This document shows, piece after piece, positions 11,355-23,768 of a stretch of 49,390 nt of DNA. The first letter of the stretch is position 1, and every line of letters begins with the position of its first letter. Made by a program: the position numbers and the translations under genes. Under the pieces are notes generated by a model. The model made no database searches, was not told where the DNA came from, and was given only the letters and a program-made list of their open reading frames with translations. This DNA is from Lachnospiraceae bacterium (GTDB lineage: Bacteria > Bacillota > Clostridia > Lachnospirales > Lachnospiraceae). Location of the stretch: contig JAUNDG010000004.1 of NCBI GenBank assembly GCA_030526195.1, forward strand, positions 1 through 49,390. Reading direction: 5' to 3'.

Positions 11355-12113
11355 TTAGAGAGATGCGCCGTAATCGCTGACCAGGATCTGACCTGTGAGC
11401 GGGGCGGATTTGTCGGAGGCCAGGAATTCGATGATGTTGGCCACGTCTTCTGCTTTGCAGGGTTTGATCTTCAGATCGGCATGGCGACTCATGGCACCCA
11501 TAATGCGCATATCCAGCGCTTCCGGTTTCATGCCGGCAGTCATCGGTGTCAGGATGGTGCCCGGGCAGACCGCATTGCAGCGGATATACTGATCAGCCAG
11601 AAGAAGAGCAGTATGCTTTGTCACACCGATGATGGCTGACTTGGTGGCCACATAAGCGGCACCGCCGCCACCATTTACACCGGCCACAGAGGCCACATTG
11701 ACGATGGAGGCACCGGCTGTCATGTGCGGAATAGCCGCCCGCATACACTGCATGGTGCCGACTTCGTTGATGGCGATGAGCTTAGAGGCTTCTTCATCGC
11801 TGAATTTATCGATGGGGGCCAGACCGGTGTCAAGCACACCCGCATTGTTGACCAGAATATCAATGCTGCCGAAGGCTTCGATAGCGGCATCCATCAGGGC
11901 AAGACAATCTTCATTTTTGGAAATGTCAACGGCCACGGCCAGTACCTGACCGCCTTCTGCTTTGATCTTTTCGGCGACATCATCCAGCGCGGCTTTCCGT
12001 CTGGCACTGATGACAACGTTCGCACCGCAACGGGCGAAAAGCATGGCAGTGGCGGCGCCGACACCTGAGTTGCCGCCGGTGATGATAGCTGTTTTACCTT
12101 TAAGTGAGCTCAT
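11355..12113 (-). CDS. short-chain dehydrogenase/reductase (SDR)
   Basis: A classical 252-residue NAD(P)-dependent SDR. It has the cofactor loop TGGNSGVG (12-19), NNAG (89-92) and a catalytic Ser-Tyr-Lys set (Ser142, Tyr154, Lys158 in YVATK). The C-terminus (LASDKSAPLTGQILVSDYG) is the usual SDR end. Arg38-Arg39 after the second strand favour NADP(H), as an inference. AAAGGGA precedes the ATG. It stands alone with a strong promoter; the substrate cannot be named. Confidence 0.92.
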   Translation of the reverse strand: MSSLKGKTAIITGGNSGVGAATAMLFARCGANVVISARRKAALDDVAEKIKAEGGQVLAVAVDISKNEDCLALMDAAIEAFGSIDILVNNAGVLDTGLAPIDKFSDEEASKLIAINEVGTMQCMRAAIPHMTAGASIVNVASVAGVNGGGGAAYVATKSAIIGVTKHTALLLADQYIRCNAVCPGTILTPMTAGMKPEALDMRIMGAMSRHADLKIKPCKAEDVANIIEFLASDKSAPLTGQILVSDYGASL

Positions 12114-13205: not shown

Positions 13206-13225
13206 AAGGCTGCTTCGGCAGCCTT
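13206..13225 (+). terminator. intrinsic terminator, weak T-tract
   Basis: AAGGCTGC-TTCG-GCAGCCTT is a perfect 8-bp stem with a stable UUCG loop, but what follows is CAATTATTGTT rather than a clean T-run. Confidence 0.6.
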
Positions 13226-13324: not shown

Positions 13325-14872
13325 ATGATTTTTAACGTGCTTGACTATCTGGAACGCAGCGCCGCTTCATTTCCTGAAAAGACGGCGGTTGTGGACGATA
13401 TCAAAGCTTATACTTACAGCCAGCTGTTGCGCCTGTCAAAACGCATCGGCAGTGCCGTGGCAAGATTTGCAGCCCAGGGCACACCGGTGGCGGTGCTGGC
13501 CGATAAAAGTGCCGATACACTGGCCATTTTCATGGGTATTGTGCAGGCCGGCTGCTGTTATTCCCTGATGAATCCGGACCTGCCGGAGGGCCGTCTTGGC
13601 CAGATTCTGTCTGTGCTCAAGCCGGCACTTGTCATCACCGATGAAGCCAATGCGGAGCTGGCCGAGAAGCTGATTGCTGCGGCTGGCGCAATTCCCGCAC
13701 CGGCGCCCACAATCCTGCTTTACGACGAGCTGATGCACCACCCGCTGGACGAGGCTCTCCTGAAAAAAGTGCGGAGCCGGGCCATCGACCAGGATCCGCT
13801 TTACATCAATTTCACCTCCGGTTCCACCGGCGTGCCCAAGGGCGTGGCCGTGGGGCAGCGGAGCGTCATCGACTTCATTGACATTTTCGCCGAGACATTC
13901 GGTTTTGACGAAAATGACCGGATCGGCAACCAGGCACCTTTCGATTTTGACGTGTCGGTGAAGGACATTTACACCGCCCTCAAGGTGGGGGCTACCCTGG
14001 TGGTCATCCCGAAGGCTCTGTTCTCAAAGCCGGCGGAGCTCCTTGATTTCATCTGCGATCAGAAGGTCACCAATATGACCTGGGCCGTTTCCGCCATCTG
14101 TCTCATCAGCGCCTGCCACGGTCTTGACTACCGCACACCCGACACGGTGAAGCGGGTGCTGTTCAGCGGCGAGGTCATGCCGCTCAAGCATCTGAAGACC
14201 TGGATGGAGCATTTGCCTGAGGCCGAATTTGTCAACCTTTACGGCCCCACGGAGATCACCTGCAACTGCACCTATCATCGGGTCGACCGGTCCCGTGATT
14301 ACGAAAATGGCATGCCCATCGGCCGCCCATTTCCGAATGAGGATGTGTTCCTGCTGAACAAAAATGGTGAGCGCATCGAGGAAGCGGGTGTCACGGGCGA
14401 AATCTGTGTCCGGGGCACGGCCCTGGCGCTGGGTTATTATGCGGCGGAGGCTGAGACAGCCAAAGCATTTCCGCAAAATCCGCTGCAAAAGGCCTATCCG
14501 GAACGCATTTACCGCACCGGCGATTTGGGAAAATATGATGACGCCGGCGAACTCATTTTCTGCGGACGGGAGGACTTCCAGATCAAGTACATGGGTCACC
14601 GCATCGAGACCGAGGAGATCGAAAAGGCCATCGCGGCGCTGCCGGAGATCGAGCGTTGCTGCGTGCTGTTCAGCGAGAAGAAGCAGAAGCTGTACGGGTT
14701 CTATGCCGGGGACATCGACAAGCGAGCCCTGCACGCGAAACTGAAGGAGACACTGCCGGTGTACATGGTGCCCGGGGCCTTCCGCCAGCTGGAGCAGTTC
14801 CCGCTGACGAAGAACGGGAAAATTGATCGCAAACTGCTGCTGTCTGAGGTGGAAACCCGCAGCAAACGCTAA
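13325..14872 (+). CDS. DltA-like amino-acid adenylating ligase
   Basis: A 515-residue stand-alone adenylation domain with the length and layout of D-alanine:carrier-protein ligase (DltA). Motifs: INFTSGSTGVPKG (ATP loop), NLYGPTEITCNCTYH, YRTGDLGKYDDAGELIFCGR, IKYMGHRIETEEIE and the C-terminal lysine motif LTKNGKIDRKLL. It should form an aminoacyl-AMP and load the small carrier protein encoded at 16455. Substrate specificity cannot be read off: the family uses D-Ala, but the decarboxylase next door makes another amino acid or amine possible. GAGGTAA lies 10 bases before the ATG. First gene of a five-gene same-strand cluster. Confidence 0.88.
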   Translation: MIFNVLDYLERSAASFPEKTAVVDDIKAYTYSQLLRLSKRIGSAVARFAAQGTPVAVLADKSADTLAIFMGIVQAGCCYSLMNPDLPEGRLGQILSVLKPALVITDEANAELAEKLIAAAGAIPAPAPTILLYDELMHHPLDEALLKKVRSRAIDQDPLYINFTSGSTGVPKGVAVGQRSVIDFIDIFAETFGFDENDRIGNQAPFDFDVSVKDIYTALKVGATLVVIPKALFSKPAELLDFICDQKVTNMTWAVSAICLISACHGLDYRTPDTVKRVLFSGEVMPLKHLKTWMEHLPEAEFVNLYGPTEITCNCTYHRVDRSRDYENGMPIGRPFPNEDVFLLNKNGERIEEAGVTGEICVRGTALALGYYAAEAETAKAFPQNPLQKAYPERIYRTGDLGKYDDAGELIFCGREDFQIKYMGHRIETEEIEKAIAALPEIERCCVLFSEKKQKLYGFYAGDIDKRALHAKLKETLPVYMVPGAFRQLEQFPLTKNGKIDRKLLLSEVETRSKR

Positions 14873-14948
14873 GCGCGTGTGAATCTGTGAGATCGCAGGG
14901 CGCATACATCGCGCGTGTGAATCTATGAGATCGCAGCGCACAAATAAC
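14873..14948. repeat. two 38-bp tandem repeats inside the dlt-like cluster
   Basis: 14873-14910 and 14911-14948 both begin GCGCGTGTGAATCT and continue with a GAGATCGCAG core; a third copy starts at 14949 (GCGCGTGTTATG) and fades. They begin immediately after the ligase stop codon. Confidence 0.75.
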
Positions 14949-15032
14949 GCGCGTGTTATGCCGCACGGCATCAGCCTGTGTGGCGAAAAACATCGCTTAT
15001 ACGAGAAGAGAAGAATTAGAAAAGACAAATAT

Positions 15033-16277
15033 ATGACAGACGATAAAATAAAAGCTTTGCTGGCGACGGAGACCACACCCCTTTACGTGTACGACACCGC
15101 TGTGCTGAAAAATCGGGTGGCATACCTGAAGGCGCAGCTGCCGGAGCGGGTGAGTCTCTGCTATGCCATGAAGGCCAATGCCTTCATCATCAAGGCGCTG
15201 GAAGGACAGGTGGATTATTTTGAAATCTGCTCGCCGGGGGAATACCGCATTTGCGAAAATGTGGGGCTGCCCCGGGAGAGCTATGTCATTTCCGGTGTCA
15301 ATAAATCACAGGCCCTCATTGAGGAACTGGTGAACGGTGAGACCCTGCCCAACTGCCTGACCGTGGAATCGCTGCATCATTTTCATATGATCCGCGAGGC
15401 GGCACATAAGGCCAGACGTCGGGTGCCGGTGCTCCTGCGGGTGACCACATCCAGCCAGTTCGGCCTGGATAAAGCCGACCTTTGCAGCCTGGTGGCAGAG
15501 TATCAGGCCGATGAATGGCTCGACATTGTGGGCATTCAGCACTTTTCCGGGACGCAGAAAACATCTCTTAAGAAGGTGGCTCGGGAGCTCAAATCCGTGG
15601 ACGCGCTGATCCGCGAACTGGCCGAGGATTACCACTTTGAGGTGAAAAAACTGGAATACGGCGGCGGTTTCCCGGTGGCGTATTTTGAAGGGGAGACCTT
15701 CGACGAGGAAGCGTATCTTGCCGGCTTTTCAGATCTCCTTTCGGAAATGAGTTATCAGGGCCCGATCGTTCTTGAGCTTGGCCGCAGCATCGCCGCTTCC
15801 TGTGGGACTTATCTCACCGGGGTGGTGGATGTGAAATATAACGACGGTGTGCACTATGCCATCGTGGACGGCGGCATGCATCAGATGAATTATTTCGGTC
15901 AGTTCATGGCCATGAAAATGCCTGCGATGCACCTGGTCGGGGCAAAAAAGCGGTTAGCCGATGCAGACAATGCAGCCGACCCGGACAACGCGGGTCTCGA
16001 GGCCGGTTCTGACGGCACAGACACCCGTCAGCCCTGGCACATCTGCGGCTCCCTTTGCACCACCAATGACATCCTGGTGAAGCAGGCCATGCTGCCGGAT
16101 CTGGCCATCGGTGATGTGCTGGCCTTCGAAAATACGGGGGCCTATTCCGTCACGGAGGGCATGGCGCTTTTCCTCAGCCGTGACCTGCCGGCGGTCATTC
16201 TGGCGAACGAAAATGGTGTGTTTAAAAAAGTTCGTGATCATATTGAAATTGCGGACCTCAACACGCCACAGTTGTGA
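15033..16277 (+). CDS. fold-type III PLP-dependent amino-acid decarboxylase
   Basis: A 414-residue enzyme of the alanine-racemase-fold group that includes diaminopimelate, ornithine and carboxynorspermidine decarboxylases. PLP-binding Lys47 lies in CYAMKANAF; YGGGFPVAYF is the glycine loop for the cofactor phosphate; ELGRS replaces the usual EPGR; CGSLCTTNDIL supplies the active-site Cys and Asp; FENTGAYS follows. A charged low-complexity insert (about residues 303-335, DADNAADPDNAG-like) precedes the Cys motif. The start at 15033 was chosen because 36 upstream in-frame residues are repeat-encoded; the RBS (AAAAGA) is weak. Its place between the ligase and carrier genes suggests it makes or alters the group to be transferred. 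Confidence 0.85.
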   Translation: MTDDKIKALLATETTPLYVYDTAVLKNRVAYLKAQLPERVSLCYAMKANAFIIKALEGQVDYFEICSPGEYRICENVGLPRESYVISGVNKSQALIEELVNGETLPNCLTVESLHHFHMIREAAHKARRRVPVLLRVTTSSQFGLDKADLCSLVAEYQADEWLDIVGIQHFSGTQKTSLKKVARELKSVDALIRELAEDYHFEVKKLEYGGGFPVAYFEGETFDEEAYLAGFSDLLSEMSYQGPIVLELGRSIAASCGTYLTGVVDVKYNDGVHYAIVDGGMHQMNYFGQFMAMKMPAMHLVGAKKRLADADNAADPDNAGLEAGSDGTDTRQPWHICGSLCTTNDILVKQAMLPDLAIGDVLAFENTGAYSVTEGMALFLSRDLPAVILANENGVFKKVRDHIEIADLNTPQL

Positions 16278-16373
16278 TAGAATACATCTACCATCCACAG
16301 AGAAGCGGCCATCATGCCCTGAAGGGATCGCATGTGTCCGCCTGACAGAGATGGCCTTCTGTGCTGAAGCAGC

Positions 16374-16397
16374 CTCATTTTCGAAAGAGAAAATGAG
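16374..16397 (+). other. stem-loop in the decarboxylase-carrier gap
   Basis: CTCATTTTC-GAAAGA-GAAAATGAG is a perfect 9-bp hairpin without a T-run, about 57 bases before the carrier-protein ATG. It is not a terminator; it may mark an RNA processing site that lets the carrier be expressed at a different level. That role is inference. Confidence 0.5.
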
Positions 16398-16454
16398 CGA
16401 AGGCTGATGTGGCATGGGGAATCTAAACATAAACATATGAGGGGTATTACAAAA

Positions 16455-16685
16455 ATGGACGAAAGATTACTTGAAATTCTGGAAGATATTGAACCGGGTG
16501 TTGATTATGAACACTGCGACACGCTGGTGGACGATCACATTCTGACATCCCTGGCCATCATTTCACTGATCGCTGAGCTGGAAGAGGAGTTTGACATCAC
16601 GATCCCGACAACGGAGATCATTCCCGAAAACTTCAATTCCGCAGCCGGTATGTGGGAAATGATCGAGCGGCTTGGAGAGGAGTAG
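16455..16685 (+). CDS. DltC-like acyl carrier protein
   Basis: A 76-residue acidic carrier protein. LTSLAIISLIAELEEEFDI is the phosphopantetheine helix: Ser32 is the expected attachment site, with Thr in place of the usual Asp before it. GAGGGG (16440-16444 region) lies about 9 bases before the ATG, fixing the start. It would carry the aminoacyl group made by the upstream ligase to the membrane acyltransferase encoded next. The downstream start codon lies 4 bases after its stop, and this gene's last codons supply the next gene's RBS. Confidence 0.9.
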   Translation: MDERLLEILEDIEPGVDYEHCDTLVDDHILTSLAIISLIAELEEEFDITIPTTEIIPENFNSAAGMWEMIERLGEE

Positions 16686-16689
16686 GCCC

Positions 16690-18291
16690 TTGTTTTACAT
16701 CATGACCTATTTTTCATTTGATTTCCTGATTCTGGTGCTGACGGCGGTGTTGCTCTACACGATCCTGCCGCAGAAGGCCCGGCGCTTTGTCCTGCTGATT
16801 TTCAGTTACGCCTTTTTCTGGGCGATCAGCGGGAAGCTGGTCATTTATCTGGCGGCGACGACGCTGCTGACCTATCTTTTCGGCCTGAAACTGGATGCGC
16901 TTCAAAAAGAAGAGAAGCGTCTGAAGGGCGAGGAGACGGATCGGGAGAAGAAAAAAGCCATCGGTAAGACATATACCGCCAAAGCCCGCCGGGTCCTTAT
17001 CCTGGCGGTGCTTGTTTTTGTGGGCACTCTGGCGGTGGTGAAATACACACCCTTTGCCCTGGGCAACATTAATAAGATCCTGGCCCTGTGCGGCTCAAGC
17101 CTCGTGATCGAGGTGCCGCTTATCCTGGCGCCCATCGGGATCTCATTTTACACGTTGCAGGTGGTGGCGTATCTGGCCGACGTCTACTGGAAGAAAATCC
17201 CGGCGGACCACAACCTTCTGCGTCTGGCGCTCTTTATCAGCTTTTTCCCTCAGATCATGGAGGGACCCATCTGCCGCTACACCGATACGGCGGAAGCCAT
17301 TTGGGAGGCCAAGCGTACCACCTGGCACAATTTCATTTTCGGATTCGAGCGGATTCTCTACGGTGTCATGAAGAAGATCATCGTGGCGGATCGCCTCAAT
17401 CTCTTCATTCAGGAAATATTTCTGAATTACCAGAATTACGACGGCGGCATCATCCTGCTGGCATCGGTGGGGTACACACTGCAGCTTTACATGGACTTCT
17501 CCGGGACCATGGACCTGGTCATCGGGACGGCCCAGATCTTCGGCGTTACTTTGCCGGAAAACTTCCGTCAGCCGTTCTTCGCGAAAACCATTTCCGAATT
17601 CTGGAAACGCTGGCATATCACACTGGGCACCTGGTTTAAGGATTACATTTTCTATCCGGTGTCCATGACGAAACCCATGAAAAAGCTGACCTCCAAGGCC
17701 CGCAAAACCATGGGCAACCGCTTCGGTCCTCTGGTGACCGGCGGCATCGCACTCTTCGTGGTCTGGCTGTGCAACGGTATCTGGCACGGCTCCGGCTGGC
17801 ATTATATTGCCTTCGGTATGTACCACTTCTTCTTCATTCTGCTGGGCAGCTTCCTGGAACCGGTGGTGGCGAGCTTCACCGAGAAGCACAACATCAACCG
17901 TGGCCACAAACTGTACCGGGCTATGCAGATCGGCCGGACCTGGATCCTCATCTGCATCGGCGAACTCATTTTCAGAGCGGAAAGTCTGTCCTATGCTTTT
18001 GGCATGCTCAAAAAGATTGTGACGGGCTTTACGTTAGAAGCTTTCAAAAATGGGTCTGCGTTCACCCACGACCTCGACAAATTTGACCTTCTGGTCCTCG
18101 TTGTCGTGTGCGTGGTGCTGCTGGTGATCGGCCTTATCAAGGAGCGGAAGATCGAGATCCGCGCGGCGATCGCCCGGAAACCGGTGGTTGTGCAGTGCGC
18201 CATTTTCTTAGGTTTGCTGACGATCCTTTTGATCTTTGGGGCCTACGGACCCGGCTATTTGCCGTTGGATCCCATTTACGCCGGATTCTAG
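16690..18291 (+). CDS. MBOAT-family acyltransferase (DltB-like)
   Basis: A polytopic membrane O-acyltransferase of about 533 residues. Many hydrophobic helices surround the family core (KRWHITLGTWFKDYIFYP; CNGIWHGSGWHYIAFGMYHF) with the expected catalytic His366 in GIWHGS. DltB moves D-alanine from its carrier across the membrane toward teichoic acid; a similar job is inferred here. I chose the TTG at 16690 because GGAGAGGAG (16674-16682) is 7 bases upstream; the first in-frame ATG (16702) is 19 bases from it. An in-frame TTG at 16672 overlaps the carrier gene and lacks an RBS. Confidence 0.9.
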   Translation: MFYIMTYFSFDFLILVLTAVLLYTILPQKARRFVLLIFSYAFFWAISGKLVIYLAATTLLTYLFGLKLDALQKEEKRLKGEETDREKKKAIGKTYTAKARRVLILAVLVFVGTLAVVKYTPFALGNINKILALCGSSLVIEVPLILAPIGISFYTLQVVAYLADVYWKKIPADHNLLRLALFISFFPQIMEGPICRYTDTAEAIWEAKRTTWHNFIFGFERILYGVMKKIIVADRLNLFIQEIFLNYQNYDGGIILLASVGYTLQLYMDFSGTMDLVIGTAQIFGVTLPENFRQPFFAKTISEFWKRWHITLGTWFKDYIFYPVSMTKPMKKLTSKARKTMGNRFGPLVTGGIALFVVWLCNGIWHGSGWHYIAFGMYHFFFILLGSFLEPVVASFTEKHNINRGHKLYRAMQIGRTWILICIGELIFRAESLSYAFGMLKKIVTGFTLEAFKNGSAFTHDLDKFDLLVLVVVCVVLLVIGLIKERKIEIRAAIARKPVVVQCAIFLGLLTILLIFGAYGPGYLPLDPIYAGF

Positions 18292-18306
18292 GAGGACATG
18301 AGTGCT

Positions 18307-19272
18307 ATGACATATTTGAAACGTATCATAGGGACCGTCCTCTTTGCGCTGGCCTTTTGTCTGATCATGCGGGTGCTGTCACCCATTTTCGAACCGAAAA
18401 ATAACGATCCCCAGAGCGGGATCGAGGAGGTGGAGGCCAGCGGGATTCTCGGCGAGCCGGACAACTCCATCGATGTGGTGTTCTTCGGTGACAGTGTGGC
18501 CTTCTGTGCCTTCAATCCGCTGGAAATCTGGAAGACCCATGGATACACCAGTTACATGTGTGCTACCAGCGGTCAGACCATGGACTACGCCAAGATCAGC
18601 CTGAAGCGCCTCTTAAAGAAGCAGGCGCCCAAGCTTCTGGTGGTGGAGACGGATACCTTTTATCGGGAGCAGGACCTGACGGATCGGGTCTATTCCGATG
18701 TGCGGGAGGCATTTACGGTGGTGCGCTACCACAATCGCTGGAAAATGCTGAGCGCCGCGGATTTCACGACTGCTCCTAACTACACCTGGAAAGAGGACTA
18801 CAAGGGTTATCATTTAAAGACCGACCGCCAGGCGGCCACAAATCCGAACTATATGGCCCCCACCGATGAGGTGGAGCAGGCTTCATTCTTCAATCGGGAT
18901 TCCTTCCTGGCCATCAAAAAGGTCTGCGACGACAATGGCATTGCGCTTGTGCTCATCAGTGCCCCCAGCGCGACAAACTGGAATTATGCCCGGCATAATG
19001 CTCTGGTGAAGATCGCGGAAGAGGCCGGCGTCGAGTTCTATGATCTCAACCTCATGACAGAGGAAGTGCCCATCGACTGGGCCAATGACAGCCTGGATGG
19101 TGGGGATCACCTCAACATCTTCGGCACCCGCAAGGTGGATGCCTGGTTTGTTGAGTACCTCGCCTCGACCGGTCTTGTTGACAGCCGCCGGGATGACCCG
19201 AACCTCAGACACTGGGACGAAGCCCTGGGCCGCTACGAAAATGCCCTGCCCGAAGGCGTGCCGGTGGTGTAG
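18307..19272 (+). CDS. DltD/SGNH-like membrane-anchored protein
   Basis: 321 residues with one N-terminal membrane helix (about 6-24) and an extracellular SGNH-type domain. FFGDSVAF holds the presumptive nucleophile Ser63 and the DGGDHLNIFG block holds the Asp/His end of the triad. DltD proteins act outside the membrane with DltB in the last transfer step, and MBOAT-SGNH pairs are common in polymer acylation; this gene probably has that role. The ATG at 18307 is 11 bases after AGGAGG; an ATG at 18298 is only 2 bases from it and less likely. Last gene of the cluster. Confidence 0.8.
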   Translation: MTYLKRIIGTVLFALAFCLIMRVLSPIFEPKNNDPQSGIEEVEASGILGEPDNSIDVVFFGDSVAFCAFNPLEIWKTHGYTSYMCATSGQTMDYAKISLKRLLKKQAPKLLVVETDTFYREQDLTDRVYSDVREAFTVVRYHNRWKMLSAADFTTAPNYTWKEDYKGYHLKTDRQAATNPNYMAPTDEVEQASFFNRDSFLAIKKVCDDNGIALVLISAPSATNWNYARHNALVKIAEEAGVEFYDLNLMTEEVPIDWANDSLDGGDHLNIFGTRKVDAWFVEYLASTGLVDSRRDDPNLRHWDEALGRYENALPEGVPVV

Positions 19273-19383
19273 AGGACGATGAATCAGTCAAGAAGAGTCA
19301 GGGGAGATAGATCAGGCAAGAATGAACAAACCAAATCTATCACTGGCCTGCTGGCTGAATAAAACATGATAAGAATGCTTGTC

Positions 19384-19425
19384 AGGCATCGGACAGACGC
19401 AAAAGCGTCTGTGCCGATGCCTTTT
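19384..19425 (+). terminator. terminator at the end of the dlt-like cluster
   Basis: AGGCATCGG...CAGACGC-AAAA-GCGTCTG...CCGATGCCT, a long stem with one small internal loop, followed by TTTT. The AT-rich segment begins about 5 bases later. Confidence 0.85.
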
Positions 19426-19429
19426 CAGC

Positions 19430-19900
19430 ATGCTTATTACAGCTGCATATGCGATGTACACTTTAAGATTAATATATACAAATCTTATTTTCGCCGCAGG
19501 AAAGTTTAAAGAAACGCAAAAATACTGTATCATCGAGTGTGCTATTAATATTATCATTTCGTTTGGATTGGTAAGAATCTTGGGGATTGTTGGTGTCGCT
19601 GTTGGTACAGTGGTTTCATCGGCATATCGCATGGTTGCTTCTGCTTATTATTTATCGAAAGATATTGTTTTTACTCCATCGAAACGATTTGTTAAACATA
19701 TTGTTGTGGATTTGATTTGTGTTTTAATTTCTATATTATTATTTTCTTTTTTTTCATTTAAGGTTGACAATTTCGGAGTATGGGCATTACTAGCATTGTT
19801 TTCAATGTTGATTAGTTCTGCTATTTGCTGTTTTGTAAATGCAGTTGCATATGAAGAGTTTCGAAGTATTATTAAATCAATAATTGAAAGGTGTAGATAA
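19430..19900 (+). pseudogene. C-terminal remnant of a polysaccharide flippase (Wzx-like)
   Basis: From 19430 the frame encodes about 156 residues resembling the last third of oligosaccharide flippases, with hydrophobic helices and the conserved stretch LIFAAGKFKETQKYCIIECAINI followed by GLVRILGIVGVAVGTVVS. Such proteins are normally about 450-500 residues, so the first two-thirds are missing. Homology begins right after the upstream terminator, so the break coincides with the edge of the AT-rich block. No RBS precedes the ATG at 19430. The stop is 2 bases before the glycosyltransferase start, an intact operon-like junction. Confidence 0.75.
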
Positions 19901-22238: not shown

Positions 22239-23768
22239 TCAGTCTCTCATGAAAATGTCTCTTGTATATACCTTGTCCATGACATCGTCAAGGCAGGGGT
22301 CATATCTGTTGGCAATGATTGCCTGGCTCTTCTTTTTGAATTCTTCCAGATCATTGACAATGACAGAACCGTAGAAGGTTTCGCCGTTCTTCAGAGTGGG
22401 TTCGTAAATGATGATTGTAGCACCTTTGGCTTTGATACGTTTCATAACACCCTGGATAGAAGACTGACGGAAGTTGTCTGAATTGCTCTTCATTGTCAGT
22501 CGGTAAACACCAATGATGACTTCTACTTCTTTGCTGGGATCCCAGGAACTATTGGCTTCATAGGCACCGGCCATTTCAAGAACCTGATCAGCAATATAAT
22601 CTTTTCTTGTTCTGTTACTTTCAACGATGGCAGAAATCATGTTCTGCGGAACATCATTGAAATTCGCCAGCAACTGTTTGGTGTCCTTGGGCAGGCAGTA
22701 ACCGCCGTAGCCGAAGGAGGGGTTGTTGTAATGGCTGCCGATGCGGGGATCGAGGCACACGCCGTCGATGATGTCCCGGGTACAGAGGCCCTTGCTTTCG
22801 GCATAGGTGTCCAGCTCATTGAAGTAGCTCACACGCAGGGCCAGATAGGTGTTGGCGAAGAGCTTGACGGCCTCGGCTTCCGTGAAACCCATGAAGAGGG
22901 TCGGGATGTCTTCCTTGATGGCCCCCTGGCGGAGCAGTGCGGCAAAATGCGCCGCCTTATCCTTTGTGGCCTCGTCGCAGGAGACGATGATGCGGGAGGG
23001 ATACAGGTTATCATAGAGCGCTTTGGATTCCCGCAGGAATTCAGGGCTGAAAATGATGTTCCCGGTGTTATATTTTTTCCGAACGGAGGCTGTGTACCCC
23101 ACCGGGATGGTGGATTTGATGATCATGGTGGCGGTGGGATTAACCTTCAGCACCAGCTCGATCACGGCTTCCACGGCGGAGGTGTCGAAATAGTTTTTCT
23201 GGCTGTCGTAGTTGGTGGGGGCGGCGATGACAATGAAATCCGCGTCCCGATAGGCCATTTCCCCATCCAGTGTGGCGGTGAGGTCAAGGTCCTTTTCGGC
23301 CAGGTATTTTTCAATGTAGTCATCCTGAATGGGAGACTTCCGGTTATTGATCATGTCCACCTTTTCGGGAATGATGTCCACGGCGGTGACGTGGTTGTGC
23401 TGGGCCAGCAGTGTGGCGATGGACAGACCCACGTAGCCGGTGCCCGCCACTGCGATGCGACAGGGAGCCGGGGCATTTTCGTTAGTATCAGAAGAAGCAG
23501 AGGCTGAAGCAGCGCCATTTTCTAAGGAGGAAATGGGGCTGTTTTTTGATGCCTCGGTTTCCACGTAGAGCTTAGTGATGTCGAAATCAAGGGCTTCGGC
23601 CAGGGCTTCCAGCTGATCGGTGGAAGGCTTGAAAGTGGCATTTTCGATGCGGCCGATGAGAGAGCGGTTGATACCGGTCTTTTCGGCCAGGTCGGCCTGG
23701 GTGAGTTTGAGAGCCTTGCGGTTGGTCAGAACCATTTCCGCAAGGAGAGCGGCGGATAATCTTTTCAT
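22239..23768 (-). CDS. ugd: UDP-glucose 6-dehydrogenase fused to an N-terminal XRE DNA-binding domain
   Basis: 509 residues. Residues 8-66 are an XRE/Cro-type helix-turn-helix ([21 protein letters not shown]). About 70-102 is a Ser/Ala/Asn-rich linker. From 103 a full nucleotide-sugar dehydrogenase follows: [27 protein letters not shown], and [10 protein letters not shown] with catalytic Cys358, plus the C-terminal domain. It should oxidise UDP-glucose to UDP-glucuronate with two NAD+. Both parts lie in one frame, and an RBS (AAGGAT) precedes only the HTH start, so the fusion is genuine in this sequence. Ordinary Ugd is about 390-450 residues without HTH. The HTH could bind the gene's own promoter or other polysaccharide genes, coupling expression to substrate state (inference). 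The last 450 bases of the gene look AT-richer than the rest. Confidence 0.92.

Follow-up and report, generated by a model that had tools for sequence, protein, structure and literature searches.

The standard case of envelope acylation that depends on a carrier is D-alanylation. In the Dlt system, the shuttle motif is borne by a separate protein, DltX; PatA acetylates a C-terminal tyrosine, and the acetylated peptide then serves the SGNH partner; MBOAT-SGNH pathways other than Dlt have no carrier protein, according to the section of PMC12148441 that deals with them. Decarboxylation of an amino acid held on a carrier is described for natural product pathways: in vicenistatin biosynthesis the thioester has to form before decarboxylation can occur (in the relevant part of PMC11284099), a bolN deletion in the bolagladin pathway is not rescued by beta-alanine (in an excerpt of PMC7756342), and BtrK acts on BtrI-S-glutamate, with the Cys loop giving substrate specificity (in the corresponding section of PMC7857480). 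Here we describe a locus in a 49,390-nucleotide stretch of the genome of a Lachnospiraceae bacterium (GCA_030526195.1, contig JAUNDG010000004.1, hereafter the window) where five intact frames on the same strand, as read from the open reading frames, encode an adenylating ligase, a fold-III pyridoxal phosphate (PLP) decarboxylase, a carrier protein, an MBOAT and an SGNH-type protein. Judging from sequence, we propose, with about even confidence, that this run performs a carrier-dependent acylation of the envelope, in which an acidic amino acid would be loaded, decarboxylated on the carrier, and exported as a beta- or gamma-aminoacyl group.

The five-gene order pointed out in the initial annotation is conserved well beyond the window. 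Among 47 relative loci with a cluster-type decarboxylase, all five genes are present in 34, with the exact order ligase-decarboxylase-carrier-MBOAT-SGNH in 30 and another order in L040, L065, L068, and L076; six loci are cut by contig ends (L031, L053, L066, L078, L079, L082). In all 43 relative loci whose contig is long enough to show it, a ligase gene is found on the same strand at no more than 4 kb, and 45 of 47 have a carrier gene within 4 kb, the exceptions being L053, at a contig end, and L063, which has no carrier. Since this order recurs among ligases that are 35-98% identical pairwise, the association of the genes is more than chance. The decarboxylase clade was found in 37 of 145 genomes besides its own (E < 1e-37, the next best genome being at 3e-20), 25 of them congeneric and 12 from the family, with none among the same-order genomes. 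Among 398 phylum-wide genomes, the decarboxylase occurs in G174, G213, and G540 besides its own (>490 bits), and named records that contain it include Lachnospiraceae, Oscillospiraceae/Ruminococcaceae, and Merdibacter massiliensis. Three variant loci (L062, L071, L128) consist of an adenylosuccinate synthetase gene (purA), ligase-decarboxylase-carrier, and a SEC-C protein gene, with no MBOAT nearby.

The decarboxylase (ATG 15033..16277, plus strand; frame open from 14925) belongs to families PF02784/PF00278, with conserved K47, C342, T343, and D346. Among the NCBIfam models TIGR03099 fits it best, below cut-off and ranked above lysA; against the diaminopimelate decarboxylase model TIGR01048, whose cut-off is 297.9, it scores 166.2 bits. 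The best PDB match is BtrK, an L-glutamyl-acyl carrier protein decarboxylase. In a 49-row tree, a 36-row group (100/99) uniting the window clade with BtrK-like, VinO-like, Sinorhizobium meliloti-type, and siderophore-context enzymes stands apart from 13 diaminopimelate-type rows; the window's own genome has a separate lysA, which falls among the latter on a very long branch. Of the 44 cluster decarboxylases, 43 have Thr directly after the catalytic Cys (Thr343 in the window), as do the remaining readable rows of the 36-row group (L140 is unreadable), and the 13 diaminopimelate-type rows have Glu there. Such a Cys-Thr motif agrees with a substrate that has no free distal amine. On this tree and these motifs, the decarboxylase groups with BtrK-like and VinO-like enzymes and not with diaminopimelate decarboxylases. 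An ordinary lysA is rejected by the TIGR01048 score, the tree position, the Thr after the Cys, and the separate lysA. The initial annotation had named an ordinary lysA- or speC-type enzyme, found apart from the cluster in relatives, as a sign against its proposal; the tree shows a non-lysA enzyme, and the ligase is nearby in 43 of 43 loci. L044 (Methylopumilus) and L045 (a betaproteobacterium), considered as exosortase-type relatives, were discarded, as they have a lysA-type CESGD loop and group with lysA.

The ligase (13325..14872, plus strand), recognized from its open reading frame, family matches, and pocket residues, belongs to PF00501 and passes the amino acid adenylation model TIGR01733 (343.7 bits, cut-off 317.4). 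Its best solved relatives are adenylation domains of nonribosomal peptide synthetases (NRPS), DltA being lower in the list. At the positions that we take to form the usual ten-residue code, the pocket reads D209, V210, K213, S256, L279, S281, L305, C313, N314, and K499, which by sequence comparison is unlike DltA; a presumed likeness to a serine code was not used. We compared codes in a table that leaves aside partial or split ligases (L031, L043, L060, L074), NRPS domains, and three VinN-type references; L063, L078, L079, and L082 hold no ligase. One code is common to 41 of the 42 decarboxylase-linked ligases and differs from that of 16 of the 18 unlinked ones. Ser281 is found in all 42 linked ligases, Lys213 in 41 (Arg in L076), and C313/N314 in 41, whereas position 281 of the unlinked ligases is Gly, Cys, Ala, or Val in 16 of 18 and Ser in two, so that Ser281 tracks the decarboxylase. 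In VinN, Asp230 and Ser299/Arg331 are the proposed binders of the substrate amino and carboxyl groups, according to the passage of PMC7756342 on this enzyme. The aligned residues in the VinN-like ligase of L141 are D199, T268, and R300, at a constant offset of 31 from VinN, and those of the window ligase are D209, S281, and C313, Ser281 being aligned with Ser299 via a constant offset. K213 is a possible replacement for the VinN arginine. In the ligase tree, a 44-row clade (98/88) comprises 42 decarboxylase-linked rows, L091 and L102 being linked across contig ends, and the unlinked L084 and L086 fall inside or beside the linked ligases. The window's own genome also seems to carry an NRPS, with long frames close to the end of contig C29 giving three adenylation-type matches (L105, G000:C29:119000-132603).

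Related trios occur in other settings. In S. meliloti, a ligase-decarboxylase-carrier trio lies among glycosyltransferases, and its first two members pass the TIGR03098 and TIGR03099 cut-offs; a Streptomyces plasmid carries such a trio beside two acyl-CoA dehydrogenases, and in two other regions the ligase-decarboxylase pair adjoins methylaspartate mutase and a type I polyketide synthase (PKS), as in vicenistatin clusters. L130 encodes an ATP-grasp protein, a decarboxylase, and a carrier, and an ATP-grasp ligase is also used in butirosin biosynthesis. Among the seven annotated plasmid regions (L135-L137, L141-L144; L138, L139, L140, and L145, which have no annotation, are left out of the counts), three have the carrier immediately after the decarboxylase and four an adenylating ligase immediately before it; a trio thus does not accompany every relative of the decarboxylase. 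In L129, the small gene that follows the decarboxylase has no Pfam match. The TIGR03098 ligase of L135:5313-8442 (Sinorhizobium meliloti, CP050561.1) has Asp, Thr, and Arg at the three substrate positions of VinN.

The carrier (ATG 16455..16685, plus strand; frame open from 16407) matches PF00550 weakly (21.4 bits, cut-off 20.8), and its phosphopantetheine serine (codon 16548-16550) is present in 40 of 40 aligned sequences. The MBOAT (16690..18291, plus strand) belongs to PF03062, with DltB as its nearest solved structure. Its catalytic-type histidine (codon 17785-17787) and C-terminal shuttle tyrosine (codon 18277-18279) are each found in 35 of 35 sequences. The shuttle motif is PIYAGF at the C terminus of the window protein and FIYANF or similar in about half of the sequences, the first position being Phe in 19 of 35; the true DltB proteins of two relatives (L093, L094) have no C-terminal shuttle motif. 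Because a carrier and a ligase are encoded and the tyrosine motif is on the MBOAT, Dlt-type loading and PatA-type shuttling would be combined here. The MBOAT start is probably the TTG at 16690, preceded by GGAGAGGAG. Counted from this TTG the histidine is His366, as initially annotated (His372 in the frame from 16672), and the annotated Ser32 of the carrier likewise holds when numbering starts at ATG 16455.

No Pfam or NCBIfam model is matched at E 0.001 by the fifth protein (18298..19272, plus strand), which is assigned to the SGNH type by the residues G-D-S66, D267, and H271; these do not vary among the 13 sequences aligned. Comparing its profile with two DltD proteins yielded a probability of 2%, both profiles being shallow, and neither this comparison nor a PDB sequence search showed DltD kinship. 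Of the earlier label DltD/SGNH-like, the SGNH motif residues are thus present and the DltD kinship is without sequence support. Three further MBOAT genes of the same genome (G000 contigs C23 and C29; L147-L149) are 32-33% identical to that of the window. In addition, we observed sister clusters (L085, L087-L090, L096-L099, L101) that combine a ligase, an MBOAT, and an SGNH-like protein without a decarboxylase, most of them with a carrier gene. Their ligase codes differ, for example DAKSAGLGMK, or SMTSLALDIK, which is devoid of the amine-binding Asp, and their MBOATs bear the shuttle motif. They appear to form a broader family of MBOAT-SGNH systems that depend on a carrier and differ in their acyl groups.

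We propose the following pathway for the window system. The ligase would adenylate an acidic amino acid at its side-chain carboxyl and load it onto the carrier; L-Asp is the most likely substrate, because the Asp209/Ser281 pair matches VinN, and L-Glu the next candidate. That no PanD match exists in the window's own genome also counts in favor of the pathway. As suggested by the pocket, Asp209 may hold the amine, and Lys213 together with Ser281 the alpha-carboxylate. The PLP decarboxylase, given its kinship and gene context, would then remove the alpha-carboxyl on the carrier, yielding beta-alanyl- or gamma-aminobutyryl-S-carrier. The conserved His and the motif of the MBOAT suggest that it moves the acyl group through the membrane onto its own C-terminal tyrosine, and Ser66 of the SGNH-like protein may accept the group and transfer it to a surface-polymer hydroxyl. 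The predicted outcome is a surface polymer with cationic aminoacyl esters, with an effect like that of D-alanylation. The initial annotation had left two options, a decarboxylase making a substrate for the ligase or one processing a carried residue so that an amine is transferred. We favor processing on the carrier, because of the BtrK- and VinO-like kinship, the similar trios elsewhere, and the conserved ligase pocket; nevertheless, the transferred group must remain an acyl group, hence a beta- or gamma-aminoacyl residue instead of a mere amine.

Several observations weigh against this pathway. The Cys-Thr loop is no proof of a carrier-bound substrate, since siderophore-context enzymes share the motif; these enzymes are also the nearest partners of the window clade within the 36-row group, with support of only 89/85 and a long-branch warning, so that the partner is unsure. 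Lys213 alone does not track the decarboxylase, being present in 10 of the 18 unlinked ligases as well, and L076 is decarboxylase-linked yet has the code IARSCSQASK. VinN Arg331 corresponds to Cys313, so the window ligase does not show all three VinN-type residues, and canonical DltA and the VinN type both lie outside the 44-row clade; the ligase is thus not of the VinN lineage, and its pairing with a carrier-type decarboxylase looks independently assembled. L084 and L086 share the ligase code and have no such decarboxylase nearby, the best matches elsewhere in their genomes (G006 and G043, whose assemblies are 90 and 94% complete) scoring 51.6 and 54.2 bits versus 555.3 for the window's own gene, a pattern that fits two losses or assembly gaps. 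Of the 30 exact-order loci, 16 have an SGNH gene that scores just 28-63 bits, and no MBOAT is nearby in seven of the 47 loci (L043, L062, L063, L071, L074, L081, L128). Finally, the flanks are not conserved across the 29 loci compared and the neighbours point to no polymer, so that our attempt to read the identity of the polymer from neighbouring genes failed.

Some of these observations would suit other explanations. If the decarboxylase acted first on a free amino acid, for example converting Asp into beta-alanine or Glu into gamma-aminobutyrate, and the ligase loaded the product for transfer as above, G006 and G043 could be accounted for, provided that they obtain the product otherwise; the window's own genome has no PanD match, so that a source of free beta-alanine could be wanted. 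However, G006 and G043 have no PanD match either, the BtrK-type kinship and the carrier-linked trios speak against this order of events, and position 213, which is basic in all 42 linked ligases, fits a substrate still bearing both carboxyls, which leaves this explanation possible but unlikely. The same two genomes would agree with a loaded amino acid that is transferred unchanged, the decarboxylase having an accessory function, for instance to clear or regulate the carrier, but this is very unlikely considering the decarboxylase linkage of 42 of the 44 rows of the ligase clade. A further explanation separates the units: the trio would supply a soluble natural product, or some other process in the cytoplasm, with a beta-amino acid bound to the carrier, whereas the adjoining MBOAT-SGNH pair would be an acylation unit of its own. 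Five of the seven loci without a nearby MBOAT are indeed ligase-decarboxylase-carrier, three of them with purA upstream and the SEC-C protein downstream, and in L040 and L065 the MBOAT-SGNH pair precedes the trio; the co-occurrence of the five genes in 34 of 47 loci, together with the related clusters that join ligase, carrier, MBOAT, and SGNH even without a decarboxylase, nevertheless makes this separation distinctly unlikely. The least probable explanation, to which we attach almost no likelihood, is a canonical dlt operon into which a lysA-type gene has strayed. The similarity to DltA, DltB, and DltC noted initially is recognizable, and DltB is the closest PDB match of the MBOAT, but all three proteins stay below the Dlt cut-offs: 284.8 bits for the ligase against DltA model TIGR01734 (cut-off 559.85), 156.7 for the MBOAT against DltB model TIGR04091 (375), and 32.4 for the carrier against DltC model NF003464 (68), and the fifth protein has no match to DltD model TIGR04092. 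By comparison, the dlt operon of a relative, G073, passes the models for DltA (566.8 bits), DltB (489), and DltD (347.2, cut-off 150). Given the missed cut-offs and a pocket unlike DltA, we reject canonical dlt membership; the decarboxylase is integral to an order that recurs in 30 of 47 loci, and the view that both the system and its gene order are distinct from dltABCD stands.

The five-gene run is followed by a terminator-type hairpin (19384..19422, plus strand), the folded stretch of which reaches -36.6 kcal/mol (z -7.4, with 0 of 200 shuffles as stable); it is trailed by a short T run only and was missed by a simple terminator scan. The frames and the hairpin energy agree with the single same-strand run ending in a strong terminator that had been described initially. 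Upstream, a hairpin with T runs (13206..13225; 8 pairs, 5 of them G-C, on the plus strand, listed on the minus strand too) probably ends the upstream gene and sets the run apart from the preceding DNA. A short frame at 19379-19900 (plus strand), overlapping the terminator region, has a weak match (23.2 bits, below cut-off) to the C-terminal region of MurJ-type flippases and is perhaps a remnant. Elsewhere in the window, an unusual fusion of a helix-turn-helix domain and a UDP-glucose/GDP-mannose dehydrogenase lies in one frame at 22239-23768 (minus strand), and a 12/12 match to the sigma-70 promoter consensus (TTGACA, 18 bases, TATAAT) is found at 12196-12167 (minus strand), ahead of a short-chain dehydrogenase/reductase gene (11355-12113). 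Across the compared loci, the largest recurring flank group comprises 14 proteins, and the five members checked by Pfam are response regulators and histidine kinases.

Taken as a whole, we predict, again at roughly even odds of being right, a beta-alanylation or gamma-aminobutyrylation system in which the strategy of vicenistatin and butirosin biosynthesis was independently assembled within a Dlt-type export machine, in bacteria whose relatives are mostly devoid of canonical DltA, and as one of a wider carrier-dependent MBOAT-SGNH set with different ligase codes. DltA is above cut-off in only one of the 145 genomes (G073; G013 comes near, with 532.1 versus 559.85 bits), compared to 37 for the decarboxylase clade, which suggests that the system may replace Dlt in some of these bacteria. 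If correct, this would be a conserved second class of carrier-dependent system, with its own ligase code and a decarboxylase, that widens the range of groups placed on surface polymers, and the clean ligase code makes the substrate directly testable. By extension, the trio of ligase, decarboxylase, and carrier associated with exosortase A might produce a beta-aminoacyl carrier for a polysaccharide. The literature matches listed, from a search that covered subscription journals thinly and bioRxiv not at all, include no description of this cluster.

Compared with known systems, the window run shares with Dlt D-alanylation (DltA, DltC, DltB, DltX, DltD) the adenylating ligase, the carrier, the DltB-like MBOAT, the SGNH-type partner, and, as proposed here, a likely cationic aminoacyl ester on a surface polymer. 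It differs in having a decarboxylase, another ligase pocket, and another gene order, in missing the Dlt cut-offs, and in the shuttle tyrosine being fused to the MBOAT, whereas Dlt uses the separate DltX microprotein. PatA-PatB and other MBOAT-SGNH O-acetylation systems have the same catalytic His, C-terminal FxYxxF-type motif, and SGNH partner, but use acyl-CoA and no carrier, in the account given in that part of PMC12148441, whereas the window run encodes a carrier and a ligase. Vicenistatin VinN-VinL-VinO, fluvirucin FlvN (both in the section of PMC11284099 cited above), and bolagladin BolO-BolC-BolN (in the excerpt of PMC7756342) have the ligase, stand-alone carrier, and fold-III PLP decarboxylase in common with the window; their product goes to a PKS or NRPS, whereas the window run has an MBOAT. 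The substrate-site Asp and Ser of VinN are kept in the window ligase (D209, S281), which is of another lineage and has Cys313 for Arg331. The exosortase A-associated pair resembles the window through the ligase-decarboxylase-carrier order of its S. meliloti representatives, but the window ligase reaches 211 bits versus a cut-off of 592.35 for TIGR03098, and the decarboxylase 182.2 versus 478.45 for TIGR03099. Butirosin, lastly, provides the nearest solved decarboxylase relative, BtrK, acting on an amino acid bound to the carrier BtrI (in the section of PMC7857480 on this enzyme), although its product is an aminoglycoside side chain.

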